From: Actinacidiphila rubida
Lineage (GTDB): Bacteria; Actinomycetota; Actinomycetes; Streptomycetales; Streptomycetaceae
DNA: 64,000 nucleotides
Direction: 5' to 3'
Assembly: GCF_900110255.1 (NCBI RefSeq)
Contig: NZ_FODD01000002.1
Location: 248,001 to 312,000, forward strand
Below, piece after piece: positions 12,471 to 33,700 of this stretch (the stretch's first letter is position 1; the number at the start of each line of letters is the position of its first letter). The translations under genes and the position numbers were made by a program. The notes beneath the pieces are model-generated. The model saw nothing but the letters and a program-made list of their open reading frames with translations. It ran no database searches and was not told where the DNA came from.

Positions 12471-15400
12471 TCGCACCGTCGTACGCGCAGAGCCGTCTGT
12501 GGTTCCTCAACCGGCTGGAGGGCGGCGCCACGTACAACCTGCCGGTGGCCGTCCGGCTGACCGGTCCGCTCAGCGCGGACGCGCTCGAAGCGGCCCTGGG
12601 GGACGTCACCGACCGCCACCACAGCCTGCGCACCCGTTTCCCGGAACTCGACGGCGGTCCCGTGCAGGAGGTCGTCCCCGCCGCGCAGGGCCGGCCCGTG
12701 CTGCGCCGGGCCCGCACGTCGGCCGACCGGCTGGCCTCGGTCCAGGAGGAGTTCGCCGAGGCGGGCTTCGACCTGGAGAAGGACCTGCCCCTGCGGGCCC
12801 TGCTCCTCGAACTCGCCGCCGACGACCACGTGCTGGTCCTCGTCATGCACCACATCGCCTGCGACGGCTGGTCGATGAGGCCGCTGTGGCACGACCTGTC
12901 GGTCGCCTACGCCGCGCGCCGCGCCGGCCACGAGCCCGGCTGGGAGCCGCTGCCCGTGCAGTACGCCGACTACGCGGAGTGGCAGCGTGACCTGCTGGGC
13001 GCGCCGGACGACCCGGACGCGCTGCAGTCGCGGCAACTCGCCTACTGGCGCGACGTGCTGGCGGGTGCTCCCGAGGAGCTGGCCCTGCCGGCGGACCGGC
13101 CGCGTCCGGCGGTGTCCGGCCGGGGCGCCGGCCGGGCGGGGCTGGCGATCCCCGCGGACCTGCACGGCCGGCTGGCGGGGCTGGCCCGCGCGCACGGCGT
13201 GACGCTCTTCATGGTGCTCCAGGCCGCGGTGGCGACGCTCCTGTGCCGGATGGGCGCGGGGACGGACGTCCCCCTCGGCACACCGGTGGCCGGACGCACC
13301 GACGAGGCGCTGGACGACCTGGTCGGCTTCTTCGTCAACACGCTCGTCATCCGCACCGACCTGTCCGGTTCCCCCACCTTCGCGGACCTCCTCGCCCGGG
13401 TGCGGGAGCGCAGCCTGGGCGCGCTCGACCACCAGGACGTGCCGTTCCAGCGGCTGGTCGAGGAACTGGCACCGTCGCGTTCGACCTCACGCCACCCGCT
13501 GACGCAGGTGCTGGTGGTCCTGCAGAACAACGAGGCCGCGGTGCCCGATCTGCCCGGGATCGCGGCCCGTCCCTACCTGGTCGGCCGTCCCGTCGCGAAG
13601 ACCGACCTGACCTTCGAGTTCGGCGAGCGGGCGGCGGAGGCGGACGGCCGTCCGGCCGGGATCGACGGTGCCGTGTTCTACGCCACCGACCTCTTCGACG
13701 CCGGTACGGCGGATTCCCTGGCGACGCGGCTGCTGCGGCTGCTGCAGGCGGTGGCGGCCGACCCCGCGCGGCGGGTCGGCTCGATCGACCTGCTGTCGGA
13801 GGAGGAGTGGCGCGAGATCCTGGCGCCGGGCGCGGAGGTGGCCCCCGCGCCGGCCGCGGCCGCCACGCTCCCCGGCCGGTTCGAGGCGCGGGCGGCCGGG
13901 AACCCGCACGCGCCAGCGGTCGTGGACGCCGACGGCACACGGCTCACCTATGCCGAGCTGAACTCCCGCGCCAACCGGCTCGCCCGGCTGCTCGTCGCGT
14001 GCGGGGCCGGCCCGGAGGGCCGGGTGGCGGTGGCCCTGCCCCGCTCCGCGGAGCTGGCCGTCGCCCTGCTCGCCGTCCTCAAGTGCGGTGCCGCCTATGT
14101 GCCGTTGGACCCCGACTATCCGGCCGACCGCGTGGCGTACATGCTGGCGGACTCCGCCCCCGCGGTGCTGGTGACCTCTCGCGGCACCGTCGCGGCCGGC
14201 CGGGAACGGGGCATGGGGGCACCCGGCCGGGAACAGCCCGCGCCGGCACCCGGCGGGGAGCGGCCGGCGCCGGTCACGCTGCTCCTCGACGACCCCGCCA
14301 CCGCGGACCGCCTGCACCGCCTCCCGGACGGCGATCTGACCGACGCGGAACGGACGTCGGCCCTCCTCCCGTCCCATCCTGCCTACACGATCTACACCTC
14401 GGGGTCGACGGGCCGCCCCAAGGGCGTCCTGGTGCCGCACGCGAGCGTGCTGCGCCTGTTCACGGCCACGGACGCCTGGTTCGGTCCCGGCCCTGAGGAC
14501 GTGTGGACGTGGTTCCACTCGTTCGCCTTCGACTTCTCCGTGTGGGAGATGTGGGGCGCGCTGCTGCACGGCGGGCTGCTCGTCGTGGTGCCCGTCGACG
14601 TCGCCCGCTCCCCGGCCGAGTTCCTGGCGCTGCTGGCGCGGGAGCGGGTGACGGTCCTGAACCAGACGCCCTCGGCGTTCTACCAGCTCGACCGGGCGGA
14701 CGCGCAGCACCCCGCGCTGAGCGCCGGACTGGCCCTGCGCACCGTGGTGTTCGGTGGTGAGGCGCTGGACGTCACGCGCCTTTCCGGCTGGCACGAGCGC
14801 CACGGCGACCGGGCTCCGCGGCTGGTCAACATGTACGGCATCACCGAGACGACCGTGCACGTCAGCTACAAGGAGCTGGCAGCCCTGCCCACGGGCGGCG
14901 GCGCGGTGCCCGGCACCATCGGCCGCGGCATCCCGGACCTGAGGGTCCATGTGCTGGACGACGCCCTGCTGCCGTGCCCGCCCGGCGTGCCCGGCGAGAT
15001 GTACGTGTCGGGCGCCGGCCTGGCCCGCGGCTATCTGGGGCGCCCGGACCTGACCGCGGGCCGGTTCGTCGCCGATCCCTTCGGACCGCCGGGACAGCGG
15101 ATGTACCGCAGCGGGGACCTGGCGAAGTGGAGTGCCGCCGGGGAGCTGGAGTACCTGGGGCGCAGCGACGACCAGGTCAAGATCCGCGGCTTCCGGATCG
15201 AGCTCGGCGAGATCGAGTCGGTGGTCGCCGGGCACGACGCGGTGACGGCGGGCACCGTCCTGGTGCGGGAGGACCGGCCCGGTGACCTGCGGCTGGTCGC
15301 CTACGTCACCACGTCCGGCCCGCACGCGCCGGCCGACCGGGACCGGCTGGCGGCCGCGCTCCGGGCCCACTGCACGACCCTGCTGCCCGGCTACATGGTG

Positions 15401-18400
15401 CCGTCGGCGTTCGTCGTGGTCGACGCGTTCCCCCTGACGGTGAACGGCAAGCTGGACCGGCGGGCGCTGCCCGCGCCGGAGGCCGCGGCCCCGGCCCCGT
15501 CCCGCGCACCGGGCACGCCCGAGGAGGAGGTGATGTGCGGCCTGTTCGCGGAGGTCCTGGGCGCGGGAAGCGTCGGCGCCGACGACCACTTCTTCGACCT
15601 CGGGGGCCACTCCCTGCTCGCCGTCCGGCTCATCAGCCGCATCCGCGCCGTGATCGGCGTCGACGTCGAGGTCCGCACGCTCTTCGAAGCGCCCACTCCC
15701 GCGATGCTCCTCGCCCGCATCGCCGGCGGCGCGGGGGCGGCCGCGGGCACCGATGCGGCGACGCGTCCCGTGCGCGGGCCCAGGCCGCCGGTGATCCCCC
15801 TGTCGTCGGCCCAGCGGCGCCTGTGGTTCATGGCCCAGTGGGAGGGTCCGAGCCCCACGTACAACATGCCCGCCGCGTACCGGCTGACGGGCCCGCTGGA
15901 CACGGCGGCGCTGCGTGACGCGCTCGCGGACCTGGCCGCCCGGCACGAGAGCCTTCGCACGGTCTTCCCCGCGACGGGCGGCGAACCCCGCCAGCTGGTG
16001 CTGCCGGCCGACCAGGCGCGCCCCCGGCTGCCGGTGCGCGCCGTGGCCCGCGGCGGGCTGGACGCGGCCGTGGCGGAGGCGTCGGGCCGCAGCTTCGACA
16101 TCGCGAACGAACCTCCCCTGCACGCCGAGCTGCTGGCGCTCTCCCCCACCGACCACGTCCTCGTCCTCGTCCTGCACCACATCGCCGGCGACGGCTGGTC
16201 GATGAAGCCGCTGCTGCGCGACCTGGCCACCGCGTACACGGCACGCCTGGCGGGCCGGCCGCCCGGGTGGCCCGAACTGCCGCTGCAGTACGCCGACTAC
16301 GCGGTGTGGCAGCGCGACCTCCTCGACGCGGAGGACGACCCCGGCAGCGCGATGAGCCGCCGGCTCGACGCGTGGCGCCGGCAGCTCGCCGGACTTCCGG
16401 AGGACCTGCCGCTGCCCACCGACCGGCCGCGTCCGGCGGTCCCCTCCTACGTCGGGGCGGGCACTCCGGTGGAGATCGCACCCGAACTGCACGCCCGGCT
16501 GGTGCGGCTCGCGCGCTCGCACGGCGCGAGCCTGTTCATGGTGGTGCAGGCGGCGTTCGCCGCGCTGCTGTCCCGGCTGGGCGGCGGCACCGACATCCCG
16601 CTGGGCACGCCCGCGGCGGGGCGCCGGGACGACGCGCTCCACGACCTGGTCGGGATGTTCGTCAACATGCTCGTCCTGCGGACGGACCTGTCCGGGGACC
16701 CGCGGTTCACCGACCTGCTCGCCCGCGTCCGGGAGACCGACCTGGCGGCGTACGACGGGCAGGACGTGCCGTTCGAGCGGCTGGTGGAACTCCTCAACCC
16801 GGGCCGCTCGACCGCACGGCACCCGCTGTTCCAGGTGATGTGCGCGCTGGACAACACCGCCCCGGCGGAGCTGTCCCTGCCGGGCCTCGAGGTCCGGGAG
16901 CGCCCGGGCGTCCGGGCGGCGGCCCGGTTCGACCTGTCGCTGAGCCTGACCGAGCACACCGCGGGCGACGGCGGTGCCGGCGGTGTGCGGGGGGTCCTGC
17001 AGTACGCCACCGATCTGTTCGACCCGGCCACGGCCGAGGCGATGGCGGCCCGGCTGGTCCTCGTGCTGACCGCGGTGGCCGACGATCCGACCGTCCGGAT
17101 CGGGGCGCTCGGCATCCTGCCGGAGCACGAGCGCGAGACCGTTCTGGCGGCCTGGAACGACACGGGGACGAGCGCTCCGGCCCGCACGCTACCGGACCTC
17201 TTCCAGGAACAGGTACGGGCGGACCCCGACGCGACGGCGGTCGTCTGCGAAGGCGAGCGGCTCACCTACGGCGAGGTGGACGCCCGGGCCAACCGGCTCG
17301 CCCGGCTGCTGATGGCGCGCGGCGCGGGGCCCGAACGGACCGTGGCCCTGGCGCTGCCGCGGTCCGCCGAGGCGATCGTGGCCCTGCTGGCCGTGGCCAA
17401 GTCGGGGGCCGCCTACCTGCCGCTGGACACCGAATACCCCGCCGAACGCCTCGCGTTCATGCTCGACGACGCACGGCCGCTGCTGGTGCTGACCACCGCC
17501 GCGACCGCCGGGCGCCTGCCCTGCGTCGCCGCGGCGCCGCACCTCCTGCTGGACGCGGCGGCCACGGCCGCGGCGCTCGGCGCCGCCTCGGCGCGGGAGG
17601 TGACGGACGGCGAACGCCGCCACCCGCTGCTGCCCGCCCACCCCGCCTATGTCATCTACACCTCCGGATCCACCGGCCGTCCCAAGGGCGTCCAGGTGAC
17701 CCACCGCGGCATCTCCGGATTCGCCACCACCCAGCGGGAGTTGCTGGACATCGGACCGCGCAGCCGGGTGCTGCACTTCGCCTCGCTCGGCTTCGACGCC
17801 GCCACCGCGGAGATCTGCCGCGCGCTGCTGTCGGGCGCGACCCTCGTGGTCAGCCGGCGCAGCGTGTTCGGGCGGCACGGGCTGGCCGAGACGGTGCGGA
17901 CGGAGGGGGTCACGCACGCCTTCCTGCAGCCGGCGCTGCTCGCCGCGGGCGCCGACCTGTGCCTCGACGGCGTCCGCACGCTCACCGTCGGAGGGGAGGC
18001 GTGCCCGCCGTCGCTGGTGGAACAGTGGGCGGGAGGCCGCCGGATGCTCGTCTTCTACGGCCCCACCGAGGCGACCGTCCTCGCCACCCACCACCTGATC
18101 GGGCCCGGCGACGCGGACCATCCGTCCGCGGCGCTGCCCATCGGCAGGCCGCTGGCCGGGATGCGGGCCTACGTGCTCGACGCACGCCTCCAGCCGGTGC
18201 CCGCCGGCGTGACCGGCGAACTCCACCTCGCGGGCGGCGGCCTGGCCCGCGGTTACCTCGACCGCCCGCAGCTGACCGCGGAACGGTTCGTCGCGTGCCC
18301 GTACGGGGAACCCGGCGAGCGGATGTACCGCACCGGCGACCTGGTCCGCTGGAGCGGGGACGGCGAGCTGCACTTCGTCGGCCGCACCGACGACCAGGTC

Positions 18401-19795
18401 AAACTGCGCGGTTTCCGGATCGAGTTGGGCGAGATCGAGTCGGTGCTGGCGCGCCTTGACGAGGTCGCGCAGGCCGTGGTCGTCGTCCGTGAGGACCGGC
18501 CGGGCGACCGGCGCCTGGTCGCGTACGTGCTGCCGGCACCGGGCGCCGTCCCCGATCCGGCCCGGCTGCGGGCCTTCGCCGCACGGACGCTCCCCGAGCA
18601 CATGGTCCCGTCGGCCGTCGTGCCCCTGACGGCCATGCCGACGACGGCGAACGGCAAGCTCGACCGCCGGGCGCTGCCCGCGCCGGAGGTGCCCGCGCCC
18701 GCGGCCTCGCGGGCTCCGCGCACGGCCGACGAGGAGATCCTGTGCGGGCTCTTCGCGGAGGTCCTGGGCGTGGACGGCGTCGGCGTGGACGACCACTTCT
18801 TCGAACTGGGCGGCCATTCCCTGCTCGCCACCCGCCTCATCGCGCGCGTCCGCGCCGTGTTCGCCACGGAGGCGGACGTACGCACCGTGTTCGAGGCGCC
18901 CACCGTCGCGCTGCTCGCGTCCCGGCTCGGCGCCGCTCCCGCAACGTCGGGCCTGCGAGCGGTGCTGCCGATCAGGGACGCGGGCGCCGGTGAGCCGCTG
19001 TTCTGCCTCCCGCCGGCCGGCGGGCTGAGCTGGGCGTACGCCAGGCTCCTCGGCCGCCTTCCGGCCGAGCAGCGCGTGTACGGCCTCCAGGCGCCCGGGA
19101 CGTACGGGGAGGGGCCGGTACCGGAGGCGGTCGAGGCGATCGCGGCGGACTACGCGCGCCGGATCCGCCGCATCCAGCCGCACGGTCCCTACCGGCTCCT
19201 CGGATGGTCCTTCGGCGGCGTCAACGCCCACGCCGTCGCCGTCCGGCTCCAGGAGGAGGGCGAGCGCGTGGAGTTGCTCGCACTCCTCGACGCCTACCCG
19301 CACGGCGCCGCGGGAGGGGACGCGGACGAGGCGGCCCTGCTCGCCGATCTCGCCCGCTCACTGGGGGTGCCGCCGTCGCCGGCCGACGTCCCGGCGCTGT
19401 CGCCGGAGTGGATCCTGCACCGGCTGCGCGCCGACGACCACCCGCTCCGGGACATCTCGGAAACGGTGCTGCACGCCATGCTCCACGACTACCGCATCGC
19501 GCGCGCCTCCCGGCTCACCCACGCGCCCGGGGTGTTCCGGGGGGACGTCCTCGCGTTCACGGCGGCGGCGAGCGCACCCCCGGACGTCACGGCCACGGGC
19601 ACCTGGTCGCCCTACGTCGACGGGCGGATCACCGAGCACCGGATCGCGTGCCGGCACGAGGACATGCTGCACCCGGCCCACGTCGGCGCTGTCGCCGCCG
19701 CGGTGGCCGGGGCGTTGAGGTCCGGAGGCGAGGGGCCGGGCGTCGCCCCCGAGAGCGCGGGCCCGGAACTCGCGGCGGCGGGGCGGCGGGCCTGA
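12467..19795 (+). CDS. NRPS, modules 3-4 with thioesterase (C-A-T-C-A-T-TE)
   Basis: A 2442-residue synthetase that starts at a GTG overlapping the NRPS1 stop (GTGA), with AAGGAG upstream. Order: C (HHIACDG near residue 128), A3 (TSGSTG near 642), T3 (LGGHS near 1049), C (HHIAGDG near 1238), A4 (TSGSTG near 1731), T4 (LGGHS near 2118), and a C-terminal thioesterase with nucleophile motif GWSFGG near 2246 and a late His in HEDMLHPAH. The A3 code reads about D-F-W-N-V-G-M-V-H-K, a Thr code. A4 reads about D-A-A-F-T-G-F-V-L-K, which I cannot assign. Both C domains look like ordinary LCL types. With NRPS1 it makes a tetrapeptide, predicted D-Val-X-Thr-Y, with Hpg probably at X or Y, released by hydrolysis or cyclisation. 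Confidence 0.95.
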
Positions 19796-20258: not shown

Positions 20259-21686
20259 TCAGGGGTGCCGCGCGGGCGGCGCCCCGGCCGCCGTCCCGGG
20301 GATGGCCGGGCCGGTCCCGCCCTGGACGTGCTCGCCGCCGTCCTCGGCGGGGGACGGCGCGGGGATCGCCGCGCTCCAGGCAGCCGAACTCGGCGCCAGC
20401 TCCTGGGCCTTCGCCGAGGCCCGGGCGAGGGCCGTCTTGAGCGGGATGCCGAGCGCGGCCGCGGCCGCGGCGACGTCCTCGTACTCGGGCTGCCCGTTCA
20501 CGAGCCGGCCGCGGTGGCGGGCGAACTTGATCCGGACCGGCCGGCCGTCCAGCGACACCGTGGCGAAGTGCCGCGCGAGTTCGTGCTTCCCGACCCGGTA
20601 CTCGCGCAGGCCCAGCGTGGACGTCTCGGTCAGGACGACGTCCCGGAGCGCGGCCAGCCGGGACGGCGGGCACAGGACCGACAGGGTGTGCGCGGGACGT
20701 CCCTTCTTCATCACGATCGGGGTGAGCCACGCGTCGGCCGCGCCGGACGCCAGCAGCCGGGACAGGACGTACGGCCAGACGCGGGGATCGAGGTCGTCGA
20801 CGTTCGCGTCGACGACCACCGCGTCCGTGAGGCGCGGCTCCCCGCCGCCTTCGCCGCCGCCCGGGCCCACCGGGCCGTCCGCGTCCCCTTGCGCTTCCCG
20901 CCCTGCCTCCCCCTCGGCCTGCCCGTCCGCGGCCGCGCCGTTCCCGCCGCCCGCCGTCGTGACGGGACGGCCGAGGACGACCCGGACGACGTTGGGGCTG
21001 TGCGGCAGGTCGCGGGTGCCGGCGCCCATGCCGACGCCCCGCACCCGCAGCAGCGGCATGGCGCCCCAGGAGCCGCACAGGGTGAGCAGCAGAGCGGCGC
21101 CGGTGGGGGTGCACATCTCGAAGGGCTGGTCGCCGGAGCGGACGGGTGCGCCGTGGTCGGCGGCGAGCCGCAGCACGGCGGGGACGGGCACGGGGATCGA
21201 TCCGTGCGCGGCGGTCACCCGGCCCTGACCGAGCACCAGCGGGGTCGATGTCGCCTCGGTGATGCCCAGTTCGTGGTGGGCCGCGCAGACGGCGGTCACG
21301 TCGGCGATCGCGTCGAGCGCCCCCACCTCGTGGAAGTGGACGTCGTCGGCGGGGACGCCGTGGACCGCCGCCTCGGCTCGGGCCAGCCGCGCGAACACCG
21401 ACAGCGCGGTGTCGCGGACGGGTGCGGCGAGGGGTGCGTCCGCCAGCAGGGCCCGCACGGACCGCCACGTGCGGTGCGCGGGCCCGGGCTCGGTGTCGAC
21501 GTGGGCCTTGGTGGCGGCGAGGCCGCCGCGCACGACGCGTTCGGTCCGGAGCCGGACCGCTCCCGGCACGACCGCGTCGACGGCCCGCTGCAGCGTCTCC
21601 AGCGAGGCCCCCGCGTCGAGCAGCGCGCCCATCAGCATGTCCCCGCTGGCCCCTGACGAGCAGTCGAACCACGCGGCGGCGGCCAT
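20259..21686 (-). CDS. larC: Nickel-insertion protein LarC
   Basis: This 475-residue LarC/DUF111 protein uses CTP to insert nickel into the bis-thiocarboxylate pincer nucleotide, the last step of nickel-pincer cofactor synthesis. Marks are FDCSSGASGDMLMGALLDAG at the N-terminus, HFHEVGALDAIADV, CTPTGAALL, and NVDDLDPRVWPYVLSRLLASGAADAWLTPIVMKKGRPA in the C-terminal half. The two halves are joined by a Gly/Ala/Glu-rich linker of about 45 residues. In Lactobacillus plantarum this boundary is bridged by a programmed frameshift; here it is one frame. The last 35 residues are a disordered tail. The ATG abuts the larB stop (TGAATG), with GGGAGG upstream. Confidence 0.93.
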   Translation of the reverse strand: MAAAAWFDCSSGASGDMLMGALLDAGASLETLQRAVDAVVPGAVRLRTERVVRGGLAATKAHVDTEPGPAHRTWRSVRALLADAPLAAPVRDTALSVFARLARAEAAVHGVPADDVHFHEVGALDAIADVTAVCAAHHELGITEATSTPLVLGQGRVTAAHGSIPVPVPAVLRLAADHGAPVRSGDQPFEMCTPTGAALLLTLCGSWGAMPLLRVRGVGMGAGTRDLPHSPNVVRVVLGRPVTTAGGGNGAAADGQAEGEAGREAQGDADGPVGPGGGEGGGEPRLTDAVVVDANVDDLDPRVWPYVLSRLLASGAADAWLTPIVMKKGRPAHTLSVLCPPSRLAALRDVVLTETSTLGLREYRVGKHELARHFATVSLDGRPVRIKFARHRGRLVNGQPEYEDVAAAAAALGIPLKTALARASAKAQELAPSSAAWSAAIPAPSPAEDGGEHVQGGTGPAIPGTAAGAPPARHP

Positions 21687-22493
21687 TCAGGCCACCTCCC
21701 GCTCCGCCGCTCCCGCGGCGGGGGCGCGGCGGGCGATCCGGGCGGCGGCGACCGCGGCCCCGAAGCCGTTGTCGATGTTGCAGACCGTGATGCCGGGGGC
21801 GCAGGAGTTGAGCATGCCGAGCATCGCGGTCAGTCCGCCGAGCGCACTGCCGTAGCCGACGCTCGTCGGGACGGCGATGAGGGGGACGCCGACCAGGCCG
21901 CCGACGACGCTGGGCAGCGCGCCCTCCATGCCGGCCACCACCACCAGGCAGTCGGCCTCGTGGAGGTCGCCGAGCACGGCGAGGAGCCGGTGGAGGCCGG
22001 CCACACCCACGTCGCGGATGCGGCGGACCGCGCAGCCGTACTCCGCGGCGACGAAGGCCGTCTCGGCCGCCACCGGTTCGTCGGAGGTGCCCGCCGACAG
22101 GACGGTGACCGAGCCGCCGGGCGCCGGCCGGTCGCCGAGTGCGGCGCAGCGGGCGACCGTGTCCACCCGGGCGTCCGGCAGGGCGGCCGCGACGGCCGCC
22201 AGGGTCTCGTCGGACAGCCGGGTGGCCAGGGCCGGGCGGTCCCCCGGCTGCTCGCGCAGGGCCCGCAGCAGCGCCACCGTCTGCTGCGGGGTCTTCCCCG
22301 CCGCGTAGACGACCTCGGGGTCGCCGGTCCGCAGGGCGCGGTGGGTGTCCAGCCGCGCGAAGCCGAGGTCCCGGACGCCCCCGGGGCCGGTGCCGGTCAG
22401 CGGCCCGTCCCGCAGGGTGACGAGCGCGTCCTCGACCGTGCCGGCTCCGGAGGCCACGCGTTCCAGCAGGATGCGCACTTCGTCACTGTCCAT
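21687..22493 (-). CDS. larB: Nicotinate-nucleotide carboxylase LarB
   Basis: This 268-residue LarB carboxylates the pyridinium C5 of nicotinic acid adenine dinucleotide and releases AMP, giving pyridinium-3,5-biscarboxylate mononucleotide. The C-terminal half is a PurE-like domain with SAGTSDEPVAAE, GMEGALPSVVGGL, PTSVGYGSALGGLTAMLGMLNSCAPG and NIDNGFGAA. Cys231 in LNSCAPG is the likely residue forming the covalent adduct with the substrate pyridinium. The ATG has GGAGG upstream, and its start overlaps the larE end by 11 bases. Confidence 0.93.
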   Translation of the reverse strand: MDSDEVRILLERVASGAGTVEDALVTLRDGPLTGTGPGGVRDLGFARLDTHRALRTGDPEVVYAAGKTPQQTVALLRALREQPGDRPALATRLSDETLAAVAAALPDARVDTVARCAALGDRPAPGGSVTVLSAGTSDEPVAAETAFVAAEYGCAVRRIRDVGVAGLHRLLAVLGDLHEADCLVVVAGMEGALPSVVGGLVGVPLIAVPTSVGYGSALGGLTAMLGMLNSCAPGITVCNIDNGFGAAVAAARIARRAPAAGAAEREVA

Positions 22494-23544
22494 TGCTGCC
22501 CTCCGGGCTGCGTGGGGCGGCCGTCGGTTCGACGGCCATGGTGTTGAGGGATCCCGAGCGGAATCCGAGCGGGTCGACCTCGACGTCGTCGAAGCCGGCG
22601 TCCCGCACGGCGTCCAGAGCGGGCCGGCAGTCCCCCAGGTCCCGCACCGCGGACGGGGTGACCTGGATCAGGGCGCGGTTCCCGAGATCACGGACGCGCA
22701 GATCGCCGGAGACGATCCCGGCCTCCCGCAGTGCCGTGCGCAGCGCCTCCTCCGCCCGCTCGACGCGGGACAGCCGTTCCCGGGTGATCGTCAGCCCGTA
22801 GGCGATCCGGCTGGACAGGCAGGGTGAGGCGGGTTTGCTCCAGGTGGGCAGGCCCCAGCTGCGACTCGCGGCCCGCACCTGGGCCTTCGTGAGGCCCGCG
22901 TCGGCGAGCGGGGTCAGGGCGCCGAGAGCGGCGGCGGCCTTGACGCCGGGGCGGAAGGGGTCGAGGAGGTCGTCGGCGTTGGTGCCCGTGGCGATGGCGT
23001 CCATGCCCTCCTCGGTCGCGAACTCCCCTAGTTTTTGTAGGAGTTCGGTCTTGCAGAACCAGCACCGCGAGCGGGCGTTGCGCCGGTAGCCGTCGCTCTC
23101 CAGCTCGCGGGTGGTCACGAAGGCGTGCCGCACGCCCAGGTCGTGCGCGATCGTGCGGACGGCACGGCGTTCACGGTCGGACAGGCTGGCGGAGTCCCCG
23201 GTCGCCGCGAGTACGCGGTCGGGGCCGAGGGCACGCGCGGCCGCGGCCAGGACGAGCGTGGAGTCGGCCCCGCCGGAGAACGCCACCACCAGCGAGTCGA
23301 GGGCGGCCAGTTGGGCGTGGAGGTTCTCCAGGCGCCCGGCCAGGTGCGGGTCCTCCGTGACCGCGAGGTGTGCGGTTCCCGAGACCGGGCGGTGTCCGGC
23401 CGCTGCGGGCGCCGCCGGGGACGGGCCCGATGGTGCGGTCGGGAGCGGCGTGGTCGGGAGCGGAGTCATCCGTTGCGTGGTCCGCGTGACGGGCGTCGTC
23501 CGCGTGATGGGCGCGGTCTGCGTCAGGTGCGTGGTCTGCGTCAC
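22483..23544 (-). CDS. larE: Sulfur transferase LarE, three-cysteine type
   Basis: This 353-residue PP-loop enzyme adenylates and thiolates the pincer nucleotide carboxylates. SGGADS (90-95) is the ATP loop. Cys161 and Cys164 (CWFC) and Cys242 (SPCLSSRIAYG) form the three-cysteine set. LarE of the single-cysteine class sacrifices its sulfur, while three-cysteine homologues are reported to hold an iron-sulfur cluster. The frame opens at a GTG three bases after the isochorismate synthase stop, with only a weak ribosome site (GGGTGA), consistent with coupling. The first 60 residues are a Thr/Pro-rich extension absent from typical LarE; an ATG at codon 26 is a possible alternative start. Confidence 0.9.
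   Translation of the reverse strand: MTQTTHLTQTAPITRTTPVTRTTQRMTPLPTTPLPTAPSGPSPAAPAAAGHRPVSGTAHLAVTEDPHLAGRLENLHAQLAALDSLVVAFSGGADSTLVLAAAARALGPDRVLAATGDSASLSDRERRAVRTIAHDLGVRHAFVTTRELESDGYRRNARSRCWFCKTELLQKLGEFATEEGMDAIATGTNADDLLDPFRPGVKAAAALGALTPLADAGLTKAQVRAASRSWGLPTWSKPASPCLSSRIAYGLTITRERLSRVERAEEALRTALREAGIVSGDLRVRDLGNRALIQVTPSAVRDLGDCRPALDAVRDAGFDDVEVDPLGFRSGSLNTMAVEPTAAPRSPEGSNGQ
23440..23544. repeat. Thr-rich repeat encoding the LarE N-terminus
   Basis: Degenerate repeats encode TQTTHLTQT, TRTTPVTRTT and PLPTTPLPT at the start of larE. They look like tandem slippage. The segment may be disordered or lie upstream of the true start. Confidence 0.55.
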
Positions 23545-23547
23545 GGG

Positions 23548-25110
23548 TCACCCGATTCCCAGGGCCTGGAGCATGGGGCGCAGCTTCGCGCAGGTCTCGG
23601 CGTACTCGTCGTCCGGGTCGGAGCCGGTGACGATGCCGCAACCGGCGTAGAGCGAGGCCGTGTGGGAATCGACGACGCCGCTGCGGATCGCCACCGCGAA
23701 CTCGCCCTGGCCCGCGAGGTCGGTCCAGCCCACGGGAGCGGCGTACCAGCCACGGTCGATGCCCTCGTTGTCGGCGAGCCAGTCGAGGGACTGCGCCCTG
23801 GGGTGGCCGCCGAGTGCCGGCGTGGGGTGCAGGCGCTCGACGAGGTCGAGGATGCCGGCCGATTCGTCGGCCAGTCGGCCTTCGACCGCCGTCGACAGGT
23901 GCTGGACGTGCGGGAGTTGGACGACGCGGGGTGCGGGCGCCTCGGTCACGGCGGTGCACGCGTCGCGCAGGGCGTCGCGCAGCGCCCGGACGACCACGTC
24001 GTGCTCGTGCCGGATCTTGGCGCTGGCCGCGAGTTCCCGTGCCAGGGCCGCGTCCTGCGCGGGGGTGGCGCCGCGCGGGGCGGTCCCGGCGAGTCCGAGG
24101 GTGTGCACCGAGCGGCCGGTGAGCCGCACCAGGTACTCGGGCGTCGCGCCGAGGAAGGTCCGCGAGCCGTGGCCCACGGCGAACACGGTGGCGTGCGGGT
24201 GCGTCCGCTCCAGTCGCCGGAGCGCCACCGGGAGGTCGAAGGGTGCGGTGGAGGTGACCCGCACCTCGCGTGCCAGCACGACCTTCTCGAACCCGCCGGC
24301 TCCGATGTGGCGGACGGCGCGCCGGACGAGGTGCTTCCAGTCCTCGGCCGGCGGCACCTCCTCCGTCAGGGCGGCGACCGCGGGAGCGCAGCTGTCGGCG
24401 GCGGCGTCGGCGGACGGGTGAGGAGCGGGCGGCGCCGTCAGGCACCGCGCCGCGAGGCGGAGCAGGGACCGGGCGGTGCGCACCGGGTCGTCGCCGGGGT
24501 GGAGAACGGCGTTCAGGCGCACTTCGGCCGCGGAATCCGCCCCGCCCGCCCCGGAGTTCGTGCCGCGTATCTGGAGGGCCGGCACCCACATCAGGCCGTC
24601 GGGCCAGGCGGACGGCGACGGAGTGCGCGCCGGTGCGAAGGAGAAGCCGCCGACCAGCACGGGGCCGGACCCGCTGGTGCCCTCGGCCGGAGGGCCGCCG
24701 AGTACGGGACCGGTGCTCAGCCGCTGCCAGTCCGCGCGGACGGCCGCCACCCGGCCGTCGCCGCGCGCGGTCAGGTCGTGGGCGGTGCCGAGGCCGACGA
24801 GGAAGTCCCCGCCCCAGGCGGACTGCCACAGCAGGGACCGTTCGGTGCGCGTGCGGCCGTGGCTCCACAGGTCGATCGGTGGCGGTTGCGGTGCGACGGT
24901 GCGGCAGCTGGCGAGGACGGGCCGGTGTTCGCGCCGTGCGATGGCGGCGGCCCGCCGGCAGACGTCGAGCAGGTCCGCGGGGAAGGAGGGGCCGAGGGCG
25001 TCCGGCGCGGTGCCGGTGGGGTGCGTGGTCGCCGGGCCGCGTGCCGCCGCGGGGCGGAACACCTGCCGTCCGGGGAGGGGGCGGCGGGTCGGGTGGGTGT
25101 CGAGGGACAT
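23548..25110 (-). CDS. Isochorismate synthase family enzyme
   Basis: This 520-residue chorismate-binding enzyme of the MenF/EntC/DhbC type should isomerise chorismate to isochorismate. Visible marks are GFEKVVLARE near the middle, the LERLHPTPALGG-like HPTPALGG, DRGWYAAPVGW, EFAVAIRSG and AGCGIVTGSDPDDE in the C-terminal third. The N-terminal 45 residues are a Pro/Arg-rich extension. It starts at an ATG with GGAGG upstream, 16 bases after the DAHP synthase stop. No isochorismatase, isochorismate-pyruvate lyase, SEPHCHC synthase or aryl-acid adenylase lies in the window, so the fate of isochorismate is open. A salicylate synthase or aminodeoxyisochorismate-type activity cannot be excluded by eye. 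Confidence 0.85.
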   Translation of the reverse strand: MSLDTHPTRRPLPGRQVFRPAAARGPATTHPTGTAPDALGPSFPADLLDVCRRAAAIARREHRPVLASCRTVAPQPPPIDLWSHGRTRTERSLLWQSAWGGDFLVGLGTAHDLTARGDGRVAAVRADWQRLSTGPVLGGPPAEGTSGSGPVLVGGFSFAPARTPSPSAWPDGLMWVPALQIRGTNSGAGGADSAAEVRLNAVLHPGDDPVRTARSLLRLAARCLTAPPAPHPSADAAADSCAPAVAALTEEVPPAEDWKHLVRRAVRHIGAGGFEKVVLAREVRVTSTAPFDLPVALRRLERTHPHATVFAVGHGSRTFLGATPEYLVRLTGRSVHTLGLAGTAPRGATPAQDAALARELAASAKIRHEHDVVVRALRDALRDACTAVTEAPAPRVVQLPHVQHLSTAVEGRLADESAGILDLVERLHPTPALGGHPRAQSLDWLADNEGIDRGWYAAPVGWTDLAGQGEFAVAIRSGVVDSHTASLYAGCGIVTGSDPDDEYAETCAKLRPMLQALGIG

Positions 25111-25126: not shown

Positions 25127-26179
25127 TCAGACGCTGGTCAGGCTGCGGGCGCGCGGCTGCCACAGGGTTCGGCCGACGGCTTCCACGACCGGCCGGAGCC
25201 GCGTCATGACGTCGGCGAACTGCGCGCCGCTGAGCGCCTGGGCGCCGTCGCACAGCGCCGCCCGCGCGTCGGTGTGGACGTCGATCAGCAGTCCGTCCGC
25301 GCCGCACGCGGCGGCGGCCAGGGACATGGGTCCGACGAGGTGGGGCCGGCCGGTGCTGTGGCTCGGATCGACGACGACCGGCAGATGCGTGCGGCGCTTG
25401 GCCTCCGCGACCGCGCTCAGGTCGAGGGTGAAACGCGTGCTGCGGTCGAAGGAGCGGATGCCGCGCTCGCACAGCACCACACCGCCGTTGCCCATGTGCA
25501 TCAGGTACTCGGCGGCGAGCAGCCACTCCTCGATGGTGGCCGCCATGCCCCGCTTCAGCAGGACCGGCCGGCCCGACGCCCCGGCCTCGCGCAGGAGGGC
25601 GAAGTTCTGCATGTTGCGCGTGCCGATCTGGAGCATGTCGCTCTCCTCGGCGACCCGTTCGACGTCCTGCGGGGTGACCACCTCGGTGACCACGGGCAGT
25701 CCGGTGCGGCTGCGCTGCTCCGCGAGCAGGGCCAGGCCGGCCACGCCCAGGCCCTGGAAGCTGTAGGGAGAGGTGCGGGGCTTGAAGGCGCCGCCCCGCA
25801 GCATGGCCGCCCCCGCGGCCACCACCGCGTCCACGACCCCCGTCATCTGGTCCTGGCTCTCCACGGCGCAGGGGCCCGCGATCACCACGAAGCCGTCGCC
25901 GCCGAGGACGGCCCCGTCCGGACCGCCGACCGCCACCCGGGAGTCGGCGGAACGGAAGTCACGGCTGGTCAGCTGCTGGGCTCCCTGGCCGTCGACCACC
26001 CGTTCCACACCGGTGGCGGTCTCCAGGACGCCCGCCGCGCCGGGGGCCTCGTTCTCGGTGATCACCAGCGTGGCGCCCTCGAACTCGCCGATCACCGGGT
26101 CGAGTCCGCTCTGCCGGAGCAGGGCCTGCACGTGCGCGATCTGGTGGGGCGTCGCGTCCTTGCTCATGACAGCGATCAT
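25127..26179 (-). CDS. 3-Deoxy-7-phosphoheptulonate synthase, type I-beta
   Basis: This 350-residue DAHP synthase condenses phosphoenolpyruvate and erythrose 4-phosphate, the entry to the shikimate pathway. Residues 1-70 form a ferredoxin-like regulatory domain (MIAVMSKDATPHQIAHVQAL). The catalytic barrel has IAGPCAVES, GGAFKPRTSPYSFQG, QIGTRNMQNF, LLKRGMAATIEEWL, VVDPSHSTGR and IDVHTDARAALCDGAQAL. Streptomycete housekeeping DAHP synthase is normally the unrelated class II type, so this copy is probably pathway-specific and may escape normal feedback. It is the first gene of the leftward operon. The ATG at 26179 has GGGAAGG upstream. Confidence 0.93.
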   Translation of the reverse strand: MIAVMSKDATPHQIAHVQALLRQSGLDPVIGEFEGATLVITENEAPGAAGVLETATGVERVVDGQGAQQLTSRDFRSADSRVAVGGPDGAVLGGDGFVVIAGPCAVESQDQMTGVVDAVVAAGAAMLRGGAFKPRTSPYSFQGLGVAGLALLAEQRSRTGLPVVTEVVTPQDVERVAEESDMLQIGTRNMQNFALLREAGASGRPVLLKRGMAATIEEWLLAAEYLMHMGNGGVVLCERGIRSFDRSTRFTLDLSAVAEAKRRTHLPVVVDPSHSTGRPHLVGPMSLAAAACGADGLLIDVHTDARAALCDGAQALSGAQFADVMTRLRPVVEAVGRTLWQPRARSLTSV

Positions 26180-26784
26180 TTGGTGCCTTCCCTGGGTGTC
26201 GTGTGGCCGCGCATTTCCCTGGCGGGACGCCGCGGTCGGGGATGATTCCCGCACCATGCGGGCACTGGGGCGCGTTGCGGAAAACCGGGGCGCGCCTCAG
26301 GATCGGCCGCGCCGGCTCTCACGGTGGGGCAGCGGGGAATTCGGGGACTTCGCAAGAAGAGCGAAAGAGGGAGAACGAAGAGAAGGAGGAACAGGACGCC
26401 TGGGGGCGCCTTTCGTGCGCCCCGTGGGGATGCGCCGGCCCGGTGGCCCGCGGTTCGGTCACCGCCGGACGGAGCTTCCCGTTCGGTGACGAGAAGGATG
26501 CTGCCACGCCGCAGCGGCCTCCACCTAGCCCCGCCCGCCGGCCGCCCCCACTGCTCGGCCGACGGTCGTGAAACCGCCTTCCACCAGGCACGATGCCCGG
26601 CTGGCATGGAATCGCCCGCGGTCGGCTTCCCCCGGTGTGCACCTTTTGCCGCCGATGGCCGGCCGCTCTCCCCATGGGGCCATGGCCACAAAGGGACGAG
26701 AGGCAGAACGGGGTTTCCGGCCCATGATATTGATGCACCGCCGGAACCGCGGCGGCCGTAAGGACGAGAGCACGGAGGCCGACG
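26180..26784. promoter_or_regulatory. 605-bp divergent promoter region, lar operon and cyclase-DUF362 operon
   Basis: No gene is supported here. The purine-rich stretch at 26340-26400 and the segment at 26690-26760 are visibly less G+C-rich than coding DNA. GGCCATGGCC (26678-26687) is a short palindrome before the cyclase gene. Shared control of the two divergent operons is likely from the arrangement. Confidence 0.5.
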
Positions 26785-27456
26785 ATGAAGATGATCGACA
26801 TCAGCCAGGGATGGTACGACGGGATGCCGTCCTACGACGCTCCCTGGTATCCGGAATTCGGGGTGCGCCGCGCCATGACGCCGGCCACCGATCCCGCGCA
26901 GGGTGGACGGACCTTTTCCGATCTGAGCCTCTTCCCGCACAACGGAACGCACGTCGAGTCCGGATTCCATTTCTTCGCCGACCGGGAGAAGATCGACGAG
27001 GTCCCACTGGAGACGTTCGCCGGCCGGGTCTGCATCGCCGACCTGTCCCACAAGGGCGATCTGGACCCGGTCACCGGGGAGGACCTCGACAAGGCGCTGG
27101 AGGGCGTGTGGCAGCCGGGCGACCGGCTGCTGATCAGGACCGACCACCCCCTCCGGTACCTGGGGCGCGCGGACTACTGGGACAACCCCCCGTACCTCAC
27201 GGTCTCGGCCGCCGACTGGGCGGTGGAGCACGGGGCGGTGCTCGTCGGGCTGGACTGCATCACCGAGCGCCCGGACGACCGCAGCGGCCAGGTCCACCGG
27301 CGGCTGCTCGAAGCGGGGATCCCGATCCTGGAGAACATCCAGAACCTCGACCGGATCTCGGGGCCCGTGGCCCAGTTGATGGCACTGCCGATCAAGATCG
27401 CCGGTGTCGAGGCCGCGCCGGTGCGCGCGGTGGTCATCGAGGACTGGCCGCTGTGA
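26785..27456 (+). CDS. Cyclase-family metal-dependent hydrolase
   Basis: This 223-residue protein of the cyclase/kynurenine-formamidase fold has the metal site HxGTHxD-like in PHNGTHVESGFHF (His52, His56), with the usual Asp replaced by Glu58, and the C-terminal HRRLLEAGIPILENIQNLDRI stretch. Relatives hydrolyse N-formylkynurenine, isatin or other cyclic amides and esters. No tryptophan-catabolic gene is nearby, so the substrate is unknown and may come from the chorismate branch opposite. The ATG has GGAGG upstream. It overlaps the DUF362 gene by GTGA. Confidence 0.85.
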   Translation: MKMIDISQGWYDGMPSYDAPWYPEFGVRRAMTPATDPAQGGRTFSDLSLFPHNGTHVESGFHFFADREKIDEVPLETFAGRVCIADLSHKGDLDPVTGEDLDKALEGVWQPGDRLLIRTDHPLRYLGRADYWDNPPYLTVSAADWAVEHGAVLVGLDCITERPDDRSGQVHRRLLEAGIPILENIQNLDRISGPVAQLMALPIKIAGVEAAPVRAVVIEDWPL

Positions 27457-28682
27457 CGCCCGGCCCCACCGGCCACGACGGCCCGGACGCCACCGCGGTG
27501 GCGCTCGCCCGCTCCGCCGCGCCGACGGCGCTCGCGGTCGACCGTGCGGTCGAGGAGGTGCTGGGGCTCGTCGGCGACCCGCTCGACGCGCTCGGGCGGG
27601 GCGACCGGGTCGTCATCAAACCCAACATGTTCCAGCGCCAACGGGACTTCCACACCAACGCCGACCTGCTGGTGGCGCTGGCCCGGCGCGCGGCGGCGCG
27701 CGGTGCACGGGTGTTCGTCGCGGAACGGACCAGGGCGCTCCTGGAGATCCTCCGGGACAGCCCGGTCCACCGGTACGCCGAGGTCGTCAGCTTCGACGAC
27801 CGGCCGCTGCGGATCGTGCAGATCCCCGCGGCGACGTCGCTGCGGGTGCCGATCGCGGTCCCCGACCTCGTCACGGACTGCGATCTCTTCGTCGGGGCAC
27901 CGCAGTTGCGCACGCATTCCAGCGTGGTCTTCACCAACGCCATGAAGAACCTCGTCGGGCTGCTGCCGGGATTCACCACCCGCATCGTGCACATGGCAGG
28001 CGTGGAGGAGAGCATCGTGGACCTCAATCTGCTGCGGCCGCAGCACCTGGTGGTCAGCGACGCGACGACGGTCATCGAGGGCAACTACCCGATGGCCGGC
28101 CGGAGCAGGAGGGTCGGCGTGGTGGCCGCCTCGCGCAACGCGGTGGCCCTGGACACGGTGACGGCGGCCATGGCCGGGATCGACCCGTCGGAACTGGCCT
28201 ACCTCCAGGACGCCGGGAGGCGGGGACTCGGCCCGGCGGACCTGGGGTCCCTCGCGATCCGCGGGGAGGAACTCGCCGACGTCTCCTTCCGGATCGAACG
28301 GGGTCCGGTGGACCTGACTCCGCCGCGGGCGGGCATCCACGTCCACGCGGAGACCGCCTGCCCGGACTGCCGGCGCTGGATCGCCGCGGCACTGGGCCGC
28401 CTTCGGTCCGAACTGCTGGCGTACGAAGGGGAGATGACGATCATCTCCGGCCCCAGGACGGAACTTCCGGCACTGCGAGGCGCGGTGGTGCTCGTCGGCA
28501 ACGCGACCTACGAGCACCGCGAGGCCGGGGTGTACCTGGAGGGCTGCCCGCCGCGGGCCATCCAGGTCGCCGGGTTCCGCCAGGCCATGGGCCTGCCCGC
28601 GTCGGAGGCGGAACTCAGCCAGTCCCGCCTGCCGGTGGCGGGCGTCGATCCCGCGTGGCCCCGGCTGGAGGAGTGTGTCTGA
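27453..28682 (+). CDS. DUF362 family protein
   Basis: This 409-residue DUF362 protein has VVIKPNMF (residues 53-60), THSSVVFTNAMKNLVGLLPG (154-173), CPDCRRW (303-309) and GCPPRAIQVAGF (364-375). Its function is not established. The ordered layout of a KPN loop, a His-rich loop and a KN-x-x-GxxPG loop recalls LarA, the nickel-pincer racemase, in which corresponding loops hold the cofactor. With larBCE opposite and no larA present, it is the best candidate user of the cofactor here. Relatives often carry ferredoxin-type Cys clusters; only CPDC and one further Cys remain, too few for a standard cluster. It starts at a GTG that overlaps the upstream stop. Confidence 0.8.
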   Translation: MTPGPTGHDGPDATAVALARSAAPTALAVDRAVEEVLGLVGDPLDALGRGDRVVIKPNMFQRQRDFHTNADLLVALARRAAARGARVFVAERTRALLEILRDSPVHRYAEVVSFDDRPLRIVQIPAATSLRVPIAVPDLVTDCDLFVGAPQLRTHSSVVFTNAMKNLVGLLPGFTTRIVHMAGVEESIVDLNLLRPQHLVVSDATTVIEGNYPMAGRSRRVGVVAASRNAVALDTVTAAMAGIDPSELAYLQDAGRRGLGPADLGSLAIRGEELADVSFRIERGPVDLTPPRAGIHVHAETACPDCRRWIAAALGRLRSELLAYEGEMTIISGPRTELPALRGAVVLVGNATYEHREAGVYLEGCPPRAIQVAGFRQAMGLPASEAELSQSRLPVAGVDPAWPRLEECV

Positions 28683-28693
28683 ACGTGCGGGCG

Positions 28694-28736
28694 CCGGGTG
28701 AGTACGGGGGACGTCGTTCCCCCCGAACTCACCCGG
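28694..28736 (+). terminator. Terminator after the cyclase-DUF362 operon
   Basis: CCGGGTGAGT (28694-28703) pairs with ACTCACCCGG (28727-28736), followed inward by one mismatch and CGGGGG with CCCCCG. It lies 12 bases after the DUF362 stop. Confidence 0.75.
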
Positions 28737-28853
28737 CTCCGCGCCGTTCCCGCCGCCGTACTGGCAGCCGGTAACGCGGCGGGAACCCATCGGGAAAGGC
28801 GGTGTCCAGCATCAGTGGTGTCAACAGCGACCACCACGCGAAAGGCAACCGCC

Positions 28854-29006
28854 ATGGGACGCAAGCTGGCAGGACTGGCCGGAATCATCGTCGCGGTGCT
28901 GGCCTTCGGGCTCACGGCCACCGGCACGGCGGGACACGCGCCGGCCTCCTCCCCCGCCCACCACGCACTGGCCGAGGGCAAGGGCCCGACCTCCACCGGT
29001 TCGTAG
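28854..29006 (+). CDS. 50-residue secreted-type small peptide
   Basis: This small protein starts with MGRK, then about 20 hydrophobic residues (LAGLAGIIVAVLAFGLTATG) and a short polar tail rich in Ala, His, Ser and Thr. The plan is that of a signal peptide with a mature part of about 25 residues, or a single-span membrane peptide. There are no Cys residues. AAAGG lies eight bases before the ATG. It sits upstream of, and in the same direction as, an atypical LuxR regulator, so a signalling role is possible but unproven. Confidence 0.6.
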   Translation: MGRKLAGLAGIIVAVLAFGLTATGTAGHAPASSPAHHALAEGKGPTSTGS

Positions 29007-29362
29007 GCCCGGCGCGAGGGATCCCGCCGGCCCAGTGGCCCCTGGCACGCACGACCGCCCGGGCGACCGCCGCGGACGCGGCGCCACCGGAAGGGTCCCG
29101 GCCGCCGGAACGCCCGACGGATCCGGCCGCGGGAACGCCCGCCGGATCGCAGCCGCCGGAACAGCACAGCGCACCACGCGACGACGCGCCACAGCGCGAG
29201 CGACCGCGGCACGCACCACCGAACCGCCGCCCGGGAAGCACGACGACGCCCCGGGGGCGGCGCGCGGAGCCGGTACTCACACCGGACCGGCCGCGTACCG
29301 AGCCCTGGAGGACGAACCGCCGCCAGGCGCCGGCCAGCACCTACGCCCGACTTGGAGAAGCC
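29007..29362. other. Gap between small peptide and LuxR gene
   Basis: These 356 bases stay open in the LuxR frame but show no credible start or family match. A near-direct repeat GGAACGCCCG(A/C)CGGATC occurs twice at about 29108-29150. It probably holds the promoter of the LuxR gene. Confidence 0.4.
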
Positions 29363-29974
29363 ATGCCTCAACCCACGGTCGTCGTCATCGCTGACGATCC
29401 CATCGTCAAAGAAGGCACGGACGCCTACCTCAGCCGAGTCGACGGGTTGCGCCTCAGCCCGATCGACGACCTGCCGAGCGCCGACGTCCTGCTCCTCCTC
29501 ACCACGCGCATCACCGAGAGCACCCTGACGCTGCTCCGCAACGCCGCGACCGTCAACCGCAACCGCGGCCGGCGCGTGGTGCTGGTGGTCAACGAGATCA
29601 GCGAGCGGGAGCTGGTCCGCGCCGTCGAGCTGGGCCTGACGCACCTGCTGCTGCGCCCGGACAGCACGTACGAGCGGATCGTCGAAGCGGTCTGCCACCC
29701 CGGCGACTGCGTGCTGCCCACCTCGGCGATCAGGCTGCTGGCCGAGCACGTCAAGCAGGTGAACTCCACCGGGCCCCAGTCGCACGGTCTCTCGCACCGC
29801 GACATCGAGATCCTCAGGATGATCTCGGACGGCGCCAGGACGGCGGAGATCGCGGCGAAGCTGAGCTACTCGGAGCGGACCATCAAGAACGTCCTGCAGG
29901 CCCTCATGAAGCGGCTCAGGGTCCGCAACCGGGCGCACGCCGTCTCGTGGGCGATGCGCGCCGGCCTCATCTGA
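29363..29974 (+). CDS. LuxR-family regulator with degenerate receiver domain
   Basis: This 203-residue protein has the NarL/FixJ plan. The N-terminus (VVVIADDPIVKEG) keeps acidic residues, but the strand that should end in the phospho-acceptor Asp reads DVLLLLTT, so phosphorylation is unlikely. The C-terminal LuxR helix-turn-helix is intact (LSHRDIEILRMISDGARTAEIAAKLSYSERTIKNVLQALMKRL). GGAG lies five bases before the ATG. No sensor kinase is adjacent. It is probably an orphan regulator controlled by ligand or protein binding, possibly linked to the upstream small peptide. Confidence 0.85.
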   Translation: MPQPTVVVIADDPIVKEGTDAYLSRVDGLRLSPIDDLPSADVLLLLTTRITESTLTLLRNAATVNRNRGRRVVLVVNEISERELVRAVELGLTHLLLRPDSTYERIVEAVCHPGDCVLPTSAIRLLAEHVKQVNSTGPQSHGLSHRDIEILRMISDGARTAEIAAKLSYSERTIKNVLQALMKRLRVRNRAHAVSWAMRAGLI

Positions 29975-30020
29975 CGGGCCGTCCGCCGGGCCCGTCGGTC
30001 CCACCGAGCCCCGGCCGGGC

Positions 30021-32156: not shown

Positions 32157-33656
<1,500 letters not shown>

Positions 33657-33700
33657 GGCAGGCTCCTTCGATGGTGGTGCGGACGGGACGGAGCGCCGGG

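Follow-up and report, generated by a model that had tools for sequence, protein, structure and literature searches.

A DUF362 protein encoded beside larBCE in Actinacidiphila rubida as a candidate nickel-pincer nucleotide-dependent enzyme

The window analysed here, a 64,000-nucleotide stretch of the Actinacidiphila rubida genome (contig NZ_FODD01000002.1, positions 248,001 to 312,000), carries a gene for a protein of the long-uncharacterised DUF362 family close to larB, larC and larE. We propose that the nickel-pincer nucleotide (NPN) produced by the neighbouring larBCE genes probably has this protein as its apoenzyme, and that the protein belongs to a small-molecule cluster. A sequence-only reading of the window had put the protein forward as an NPN-dependent enzyme, and the idea gained support in silico from the predicted fold and from the pairing of H155 and K165 with LarA residues; a genome without a LarA match, cluster linkage, natural co-loss and co-occurrence across genomes agree with it. 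According to an excerpt of PMC11796402, about 15% of the genomes analysed there have larB, larE and larC without larA, and non-LarA NPN-binding proteins are inferred. No paper assigning NPN to DUF362 or naming a non-LarA NPN-binding protein was found in the open-licence PubMed Central literature, in which the sole paper found with both 'nickel-pincer' and 'DUF362' has DUF362, in its excerpted text, as a tree outgroup.

Results

An NPN pathway without LarA

The window genome (9.0 Mb in 111 contigs, 99.95% complete) has larB, larC and larE genes that all exceed their NCBIfam cut-offs, with one LarB over cut-off, and so has the gene set for NPN; its sole PF04015 match is the DUF362 gene. As no match to LarA (PF09861) was found in this genome, the NPN pathway there lacks a known apoenzyme.

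The DUF362 open reading frame (ORF) has a GTG start and overlaps the stop of an upstream PF04199 'cyclase' gene by 4 nt. Pfam DUF362 (PF04015) matches residues 53-238 with 110.2 bits (E 1.8e-31), exceeding the gathering cut-off of 24 bits, and a Pfam scan at E up to 1 gave no Lar_N/LarA (PF09861) match in the protein. Its best NCBIfam match, NF052623 (Npun_F2552 family), covers the motif region (residues 141-271) with 56 bits, far below the curated cut-off of 500 bits. The loop motifs described by the sequence-only reading are present, namely KPN at 56-58, THSSVVFTNAMKN at 154-166 and a GxxPG-type turn (GLLPG) at 169-173; K56, P57, N58, H155, K165, N166, P172, G173 and H180 are invariant in all 21 aligned rows. 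The second loop had been called His/Lys-rich, a description that does not fit its 13 residues, which contain just one His and one Lys.

Predicted fold and LarA-equivalent residues

An AlphaFold2 model of the protein (predicted local distance difference test score, pLDDT, 77.8; predicted TM-score 0.77) was compared with solved structures by VIA-align. Rows 1-12 were all LarA-family (Z 13.9-16.3 over 200-218 residues, root-mean-square deviation (rmsd) 2.9-3.5), the best match of this predicted model having Z 16.3, 204 residues and rmsd 2.9; at the first row after these, Z falls to 5.4. The sequence-only reading had staked its proposal on relatedness to the LarA fold, and it is LarA-family structures that the model retrieved. 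They include the Thermotoga protein 4nar, itself found by sequence with a LarA query. Foldseek likewise placed LarA-family structures at ranks 1-15, with TM-scores of 0.31-0.38. A PDB sequence search with the 21-row profile gave a single match, at E 0.69.

In LarA, R75, K184 and H200 bind NPN and D72, H108, H174 and K298 are catalytic, according to the excerpted text of PMC7583248. The separation of H155 and K165 is 10 positions, that of H174 and K184 in LarA. Three profile alignments, of which two reached significance, recovered the pairs H155/H174 and K165/K184. With 34 DUF362 rows against 6 LarA rows, hhalign gave a probability of 81% (E 1.3e-5); adding 10 ferredoxin-type rows raised this to 90% (E 1.7e-6), with H155 and K165 again opposite H174 and K184. 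K165 and H180 are 15 positions apart, against 16 for K184 and H200. Pairing in the KPN region differs between alignments, being N58/D72 and Q61/R75 in the non-significant one and M59/D72 and R62/R75 in the deeper one, and no counterpart of LarA K298 was placed in the alignments of the DUF362 protein. The DUF362 and LarA Pfam families are placed in the same clan, CL0471, in the part of PMC11770544 consulted.

Linkage to the lar genes

A scan for relatives, seeded with the DUF362 protein and not with lar genes, yielded 18 loci from Kitasatospora, Streptomyces, Actinoplanes, Catenulispora, Geodermatophilus, Pseudonocardia, Mycobacterium, Mycolicibacterium, Amycolatopsis, Nonomuraea and Tengunoibacter. 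Together with the window, two Streptomycetaceae genomes (G075 and G100) and NBC_01450 these make 22 intact loci, in 18 of which LarB lies at most 20 kb from the DUF362 gene. A chorismate-using enzyme is encoded near the DUF362 gene in 21 of the 22, the exception being L018, which was viewed with 10-kb flanks. The sequence-only reading had taken the DUF362 protein for the only uncharacterised large enzyme divergent from larBCE, but a PF04199 cyclase gene lies ahead of it in the window and at every one of the 18 scanned loci and stands beside it also in L068, L071, L073 and L124. Among 24 genomes reached via the DUF362 protein (22 of them distinct, G156 and G196 being the genomes of L002 and L005), LarB is over cut-off in 23 and a LarA domain is present in 6.

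Just one of 72,556 plasmid records matched, NZ_CP109481.1 (a 2.35-Mb plasmid of Streptomyces sp. NBC_01450), which has the same gene order from the non-ribosomal peptide synthetase (NRPS) genes to the LuxR gene and a DUF362 protein 84.7% identical to that of the window; the record has no annotated features at the cluster. A search of viral contigs found no relatives. Two Amycolatopsis genomes (G212 and G215) each have two LarB copies in different clades, one about 1 kb from LarA and the other in the DUF362 cluster.

A natural co-loss

The one genome of the 24 without LarB over cut-off, G051, has a cluster that shares 95-96% DNA identity with that of G075. The match over L073 1423-19901 is interrupted at just two places. 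The first gap (L073 8507-11483) covers larC, larB and larE, and the second (L073 16551-17312) removes 762 bp within the DUF362 gene, the larger part of it, spanning the H155/K165/H180 region. Genes for an ATP-grasp protein, isochorismate synthase, an AMP-binding protein, DAHP synthase, the cyclase and an aldehyde-dehydrogenase-like protein are still present in the G051 cluster.

Co-occurrence across genomes

Across 200 Streptomycetaceae genomes LarB was found in 33, LarA in 30 and this DUF362 protein in 6, one of these being the truncated copy of G051. Six genomes have LarB without LarA (G000, G075, G100, G133, G156 and G196) and all except G133 have the DUF362 protein, which is thus present in 5/6 LarB-positive, LarA-negative genomes against 0/27 with both (Fisher 2.5e-5). 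The PF04015 model also matched 6 of the 200, the same five carriers and G131; the latter, without LarB or LarA, has a different DUF362 protein, and an unusual 737-residue ORF containing DUF362 was seen in it (L067, contig C350).

A wider set of 376 Actinomycetota genomes contained DUF362 in 168, LarB in 223 (counted at E 1e-30 or better) and LarA in 160 by the stricter count (of 183 Lar_N matches, 167 were above the Pfam cut-off and 160 were used). Where LarA is absent, LarB accompanies DUF362 in 59 of 70 genomes, against 23 of the 146 others (odds ratio 28.7, Fisher 8e-23, not phylogeny-corrected). Where LarA is present, no association of DUF362 with LarB was detectable (89/98 versus 52/62, p 0.21), LarB being found in 141/160 LarA genomes. 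At family level, 24 families have DUF362 without LarA, of which 20 are mostly LarB-positive, 3 mostly LarB-negative and 1 tied. The 23 matches to Lar_N left aside were weak (E 4e-7 to 9e-4) and came without exception from DUF362 genomes; as possible DUF362 cross-hits they were classed as no LarA. If all 183 matches are taken as LarA, the comparison becomes 40/47 versus 23/146. The window profile matched in 7/9 LarB-negative, LarA-positive genomes, in 10/20 LarB-negative genomes overall and in 1/2 LarB-positive controls.

Two control genomes, those of Synechococcus elongatus and Haloferax volcanii, encode LarB and DUF362 but no LarA, in line with the hypothesis. M. jannaschii and C. glutamicum encode LarB but lack both LarA and DUF362, and Bacteroides ihuae has DUF362 with no LarB at the threshold used. 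A second DUF362 class with two ferredoxin-type motifs was seen at L089, L094, L092 and L105. In this class a GHE..GFGG..KN stretch is strikingly like the H..AGFSGG.K of LarA; the genomes of L089 and L094 are without LarB.

The gene cluster in the window

Besides the lar genes, the run divergent from the cyclase-DUF362 pair includes isochorismate synthase and DAHP synthase genes (Table 1). Lys in the FEKVVLAR motif of the isochorismate synthase is, we take it, the residue of water-using enzymes. When the chorismate-using enzymes of 19 loci were set against that of the window, 8 were isochorismate-synthase-like with Lys, as in the window, and 11 anthranilate-synthase-like with Gln there, the Lys and Gln being read according to what we presume each to signify. 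A glutaminase partner of the anthranilate-synthase-like enzyme was not found in the next ORF of two loci (L010 and L013). An aryl-acid signature was sought in all four NRPS adenylation domains and FD, which marks the amino-acid-activating type, was found instead, giving no clue to the product; nor were promoter or terminator consensus sites found at 25900-30100.

Table 1. Coordinates of the DUF362 gene, its proposed functional sites and neighbouring genes in the window
Feature	Position	Strand	Remarks
DUF362 protein, candidate NPN-dependent enzyme	27453..28682	+	409 aa; PF04015 and LarA-family predicted fold
K56-P57-N58 loop	27618..27626	+	invariant 21/21 rows; in region of LarA D72...R75 loop
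T154-H155...K165-N166	27912..27950	+	H155 opposite LarA H174, K165 opposite LarA K184; H and K invariant 21/21
H180, possible equivalent of LarA H200	27990..27992	+	spacing and invariance 21/21
C-terminal domain, residues 276-409	28278..28682	+	H296, C303-x2-C306, G-C365-P-P; possible degenerate NuoB/hydrogenase-small-subunit-like Fe-S domain
PF04199 'cyclase'	26785..27456	+	E 1.6e-24; 4-nt overlap with DUF362 start
DAHP synthase, shikimate pathway entry	25127..26257	-	
Isochorismate synthase	23548..25110	-	TIGR00543 297 bits, cut-off 224.75; FEKVVLAR motif
LarE, sacrificial sulfur transferase	22483..23544	-	TIGR00268 272 bits, cut-off 150; true start perhaps ~65 codons further in
LarB	21687..22493	-	NF033503 262 bits, cut-off 175
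LarC, LarC1 and LarC2 in single ORF, nickel insertion	20259..21686	-	TIGR00299 and NF052512 above cut-offs; PF01969
LuxR-family regulator, start uncertain	28802..29974	+	PF00196 E 1.4e-13; adjoins DUF362 gene also in NZ_CP109481.1
NRPS, two adenylation (A), two peptidyl carrier protein (PCP) and one condensation (C) domain	7212..12470	+	far side of larC; 81% identity, same order in NZ_CP109481.1
NRPS, two C, two A, two PCP and one thioesterase domain	11813..19795	+	thioesterase at end; ORF start over-extended; 80% identity in NZ_CP109481.1

The gene content of the clusters varies between genera. In Kitasatospora clusters an ATP-grasp ligase is accompanied by AMP-binding-like and aldehyde-dehydrogenase-like proteins; those of Mycobacterium have ATP-grasp ligases and a nitrosuccinate-lyase-like protein, and those of Amycolatopsis a lyase and an NAD_binding_9 protein. 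The Amycolatopsis version at L077 4843-11989 comprises an NAD_binding_9 protein, a lyase and an AMP-binding protein, and the Mycobacterium version at L010 716-3837 a nitrosuccinate-lyase-like protein and a mycothiol-dependent nitroreductase. These two sets are reminiscent of CreE/CreD-type nitrous-acid-forming pathways and of a possible product with an N-N bond or a diazo group. Elsewhere in the window, at about 32157-38506 on the minus strand, ORFs resemble by eye inositol catabolism genes which we presume to be IolA-, IolD- and IolB-like.

The C-terminal domain

Residues 276-409 were modelled separately (AlphaFold2, pLDDT 82). VIA-align rows 1-13 for this domain were complex I, formate hydrogenlyase, membrane-bound hydrogenase or NiFe-hydrogenase chains (Z 5.2-6.2), the best with Z 6.2 and rmsd 3.8 over 95 residues, and an unrelated glycosyltransferase at row 14 ties at Z 5.2. 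We take the matched chains to be NuoB/PSST-type or small subunits, partly from the structure titles. No Pfam or PDB sequence match was obtained for the domain, and Foldseek gave nothing below E 1.6. The Cys ligand pattern of NuoB and hydrogenase small subunits is CxxC, GxC and GCPP. CxxC and GCPP are invariant here, and the third position, G-N-C, is Cys in 12/21 rows and Ala in 9/21, including the window protein; 12/21 rows thus have four Cys of the set and the window protein three. On this modelling the C-terminal third would bear a weak resemblance to a NuoB/hydrogenase iron-sulfur (Fe-S) domain. The whole protein has five Cys (143, 303, 306, 365 and 408), four of them invariant in the 21-row alignment, where the sequence-only reading had counted CPDC and one other. 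Cys poverty was abandoned as an argument for a different cofactor after this count, and the related argument from absent ferredoxin Cys is weak, given that a possible Fe-S-type domain remains at the C-terminus.

Discussion

The fold, the conserved pair H155/K165 and the genomic association with larBCE together make it probable that the DUF362 protein binds NPN. LarB, LarE and LarC would make NPN from nicotinate nucleotide, and the cofactor would be housed in the LarA-like N-terminal domain, where K165 may take the place of the NPN-carrying Lys of LarA and H155 that of the catalytic His174; H180 would probably be a nickel ligand.

A number of observations weigh against this assignment. The Foldseek TM-scores to LarA are low, a shallow hhalign comparison fell short of significance (probability 0.2%), which was reached only once further DUF362 rows had been included, and the ferredoxin-type DUF362 set alone was not significant against LarA (3.4%). 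H180 is unpaired with H200 in the profile alignments, matching by spacing only, and lies in a loop with pLDDT below 50, the model being of low confidence at 173-187. Neither Arg75 nor His108 of LarA has an invariant counterpart in the DUF362 rows: Arg75 falls opposite Q61 or R62, the latter being Arg in just 7/21 rows, and the His108 position is His in 13/21, the other rows having Arg (4, with the window protein among them), Ala (2) or Gln (2). Four of the 22 loci (L007, L008, L015 and L018) have no linked LarB. At L007 the DUF362 gene is about 3 kb from a contig end, and the LarB of this genome, encoded on a different contig, falls among the DUF362-type LarBs; L008 has a linked LarE with LarB not found in the locus; the sole LarB over cut-off in the L015 genome adjoins LarA; and the LarB of L018 is on another contig. 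The LarBs of DUF362 clusters do not form one clade, those of G207-G209 standing apart in the LarB tree (the LarB of G206 in this tree was not found near a DUF362 gene). LarB and LarA are both missing from eleven DUF362 genomes; of these, three (G250, G275 and G581) match the window profile and five are from family f19. The five f19 genomes have no window-profile match, and the two f19 proteins that were read are ferredoxin-fused and keep H-x9-K and a later His, so that these residues alone are no proof of NPN. H-x9-K by itself was therefore dropped as a marker of NPN use. Finally, 23 of the 376 genomes have LarB with neither LarA nor DUF362, implying that the lar genes have further users or that some users went undetected.

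This last group bears on the most serious of the alternatives, that the lar genes supply NPN to another host protein, either an undetected LarA-like enzyme or one of a different family, with the adjacency of DUF362 incidental. G133, which has larE, larB and larC (L069, contig C1) and neither LarA nor DUF362, also fits such a scheme. Against it stand the linkage, seen at 18/22 loci from many genera, and the loss of the lar genes together with DUF362, and the LarB of G133 belongs to the LarA-type clade; we consider this explanation improbable. A further larE-larB-larC set was seen at L074 (G207, contig C32), in a genome without a LarA match that has a DUF362-linked set as well; the LarBs of the L074 and L069 sets group with LarA-adjacent LarBs.

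It is also quite improbable, in our view, that the DUF362 protein is an Fe-S redox enzyme whose activity depends on the C-terminal Cys and not on NPN, its likeness to LarA reflecting old common ancestry. In support, ferredoxin-type motifs occur in all 15 script-selected ORFs from 31 DUF362 loci, excerpts of PMC5742341 and PMC7955657 describe DUF362 as common in Fe-S proteins, the f19 DUF362 genomes are without LarB and the C-terminal domain is weakly NuoB-like. Against this stand the lar linkage and the co-loss, and the replacement of the third C-terminal Cys by Ala in the window protein and eight other rows. The idea that the thiocarboxylated pyridinium intermediates of LarB, LarE and LarC are themselves a product building block, processed by DUF362 without an NPN cofactor, suits a cluster of secondary-metabolite type that carries NRPS or ATP-grasp genes and is compatible with the co-loss, but is hardly probable given a LarA-like fold that keeps the cofactor-site Lys and catalytic His, a ring precursor already provided by the isochorismate or anthranilate-type synthase and a DUF362-LarB co-occurrence that is phylum-wide, beyond this subfamily.

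If the DUF362 protein is taken as an NPN apoenzyme, its closest known relations are the NPN-dependent 2-hydroxyacid racemases and epimerases of the LarA superfamily (DUF2088/Lar_N, PF09861), which it resembles in predicted fold over about 200 residues, in H-x9-K and in co-occurrence with larBCE. It differs from them in having no Lar_N match and no invariant Arg75 or His108 counterpart, and in lying in a cluster with chorismate-using genes. Ferredoxin-type DUF362 proteins share the Pfam domain (PF04015) and, in those read, H-x9-K, but carry CxxCxxC motifs that the window protein lacks, its C-terminal domain being different. LarA homologues with a single catalytic His are NPN enzymes in which one of the two His is replaced, as described in an excerpt of PMC12611868; one of them, 9q3k, matches the DUF362 model with Z 14.3. 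By the same excerpt these have Asn at the position of LarA His174, whereas DUF362 keeps His174 and is variable at His108, and a racemase requires two catalytic His in the LarA scheme. For the window protein, which has Arg at the His108 position, a hydride reaction other than racemisation is thus a reasonable conjecture, but no more than that. Loaded LarA homologues absorb near 420 and 550 nm in PMC12611868, and PMC11796402 gives about 450.7 Da for a LarA-like adduct.

The substrate is a matter for greater caution. The presence of chorismate-using enzymes near the gene, together with the linkage to the cyclase, leads us to propose that cyclase and DUF362 act one after the other upon a ring acid of chorismate origin. 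That the substrate is of isochorismate type and undergoes hydride chemistry is weakly indicated, and we regard it as somewhat short of an even chance. The DUF362 enzyme would abstract hydride from a hydroxylated acid of isochorismate origin and perhaps give it back afterwards, the adjoining DAHP and isochorismate synthases being able to supply the isochorismate; working with the overlapping cyclase, it might yield a small-molecule building block, here perhaps for a peptide from the linked NRPS. A bolder and rather doubtful version makes DUF362 a second NPN superfamily behind much of the larBCE-without-larA pattern, with the NPN-hydride site joined here to the NuoB-like Fe-S domain through which electrons could pass in or out. 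Not confined to racemisation, such a natural-product NPN enzyme might act on a ring of the isochorismate or aminodeoxyisochorismate type, by a net redox reaction or by allylic isomerisation.

The linked and co-lost DUF362-larBCE set provides a directly testable candidate for the puzzle of larBCE without larA. If the proposal is true, NPN would move from hydroxyacid racemisation into specialised metabolism, and DUF362 may help to account for the many microbes that make NPN without lactate racemase.

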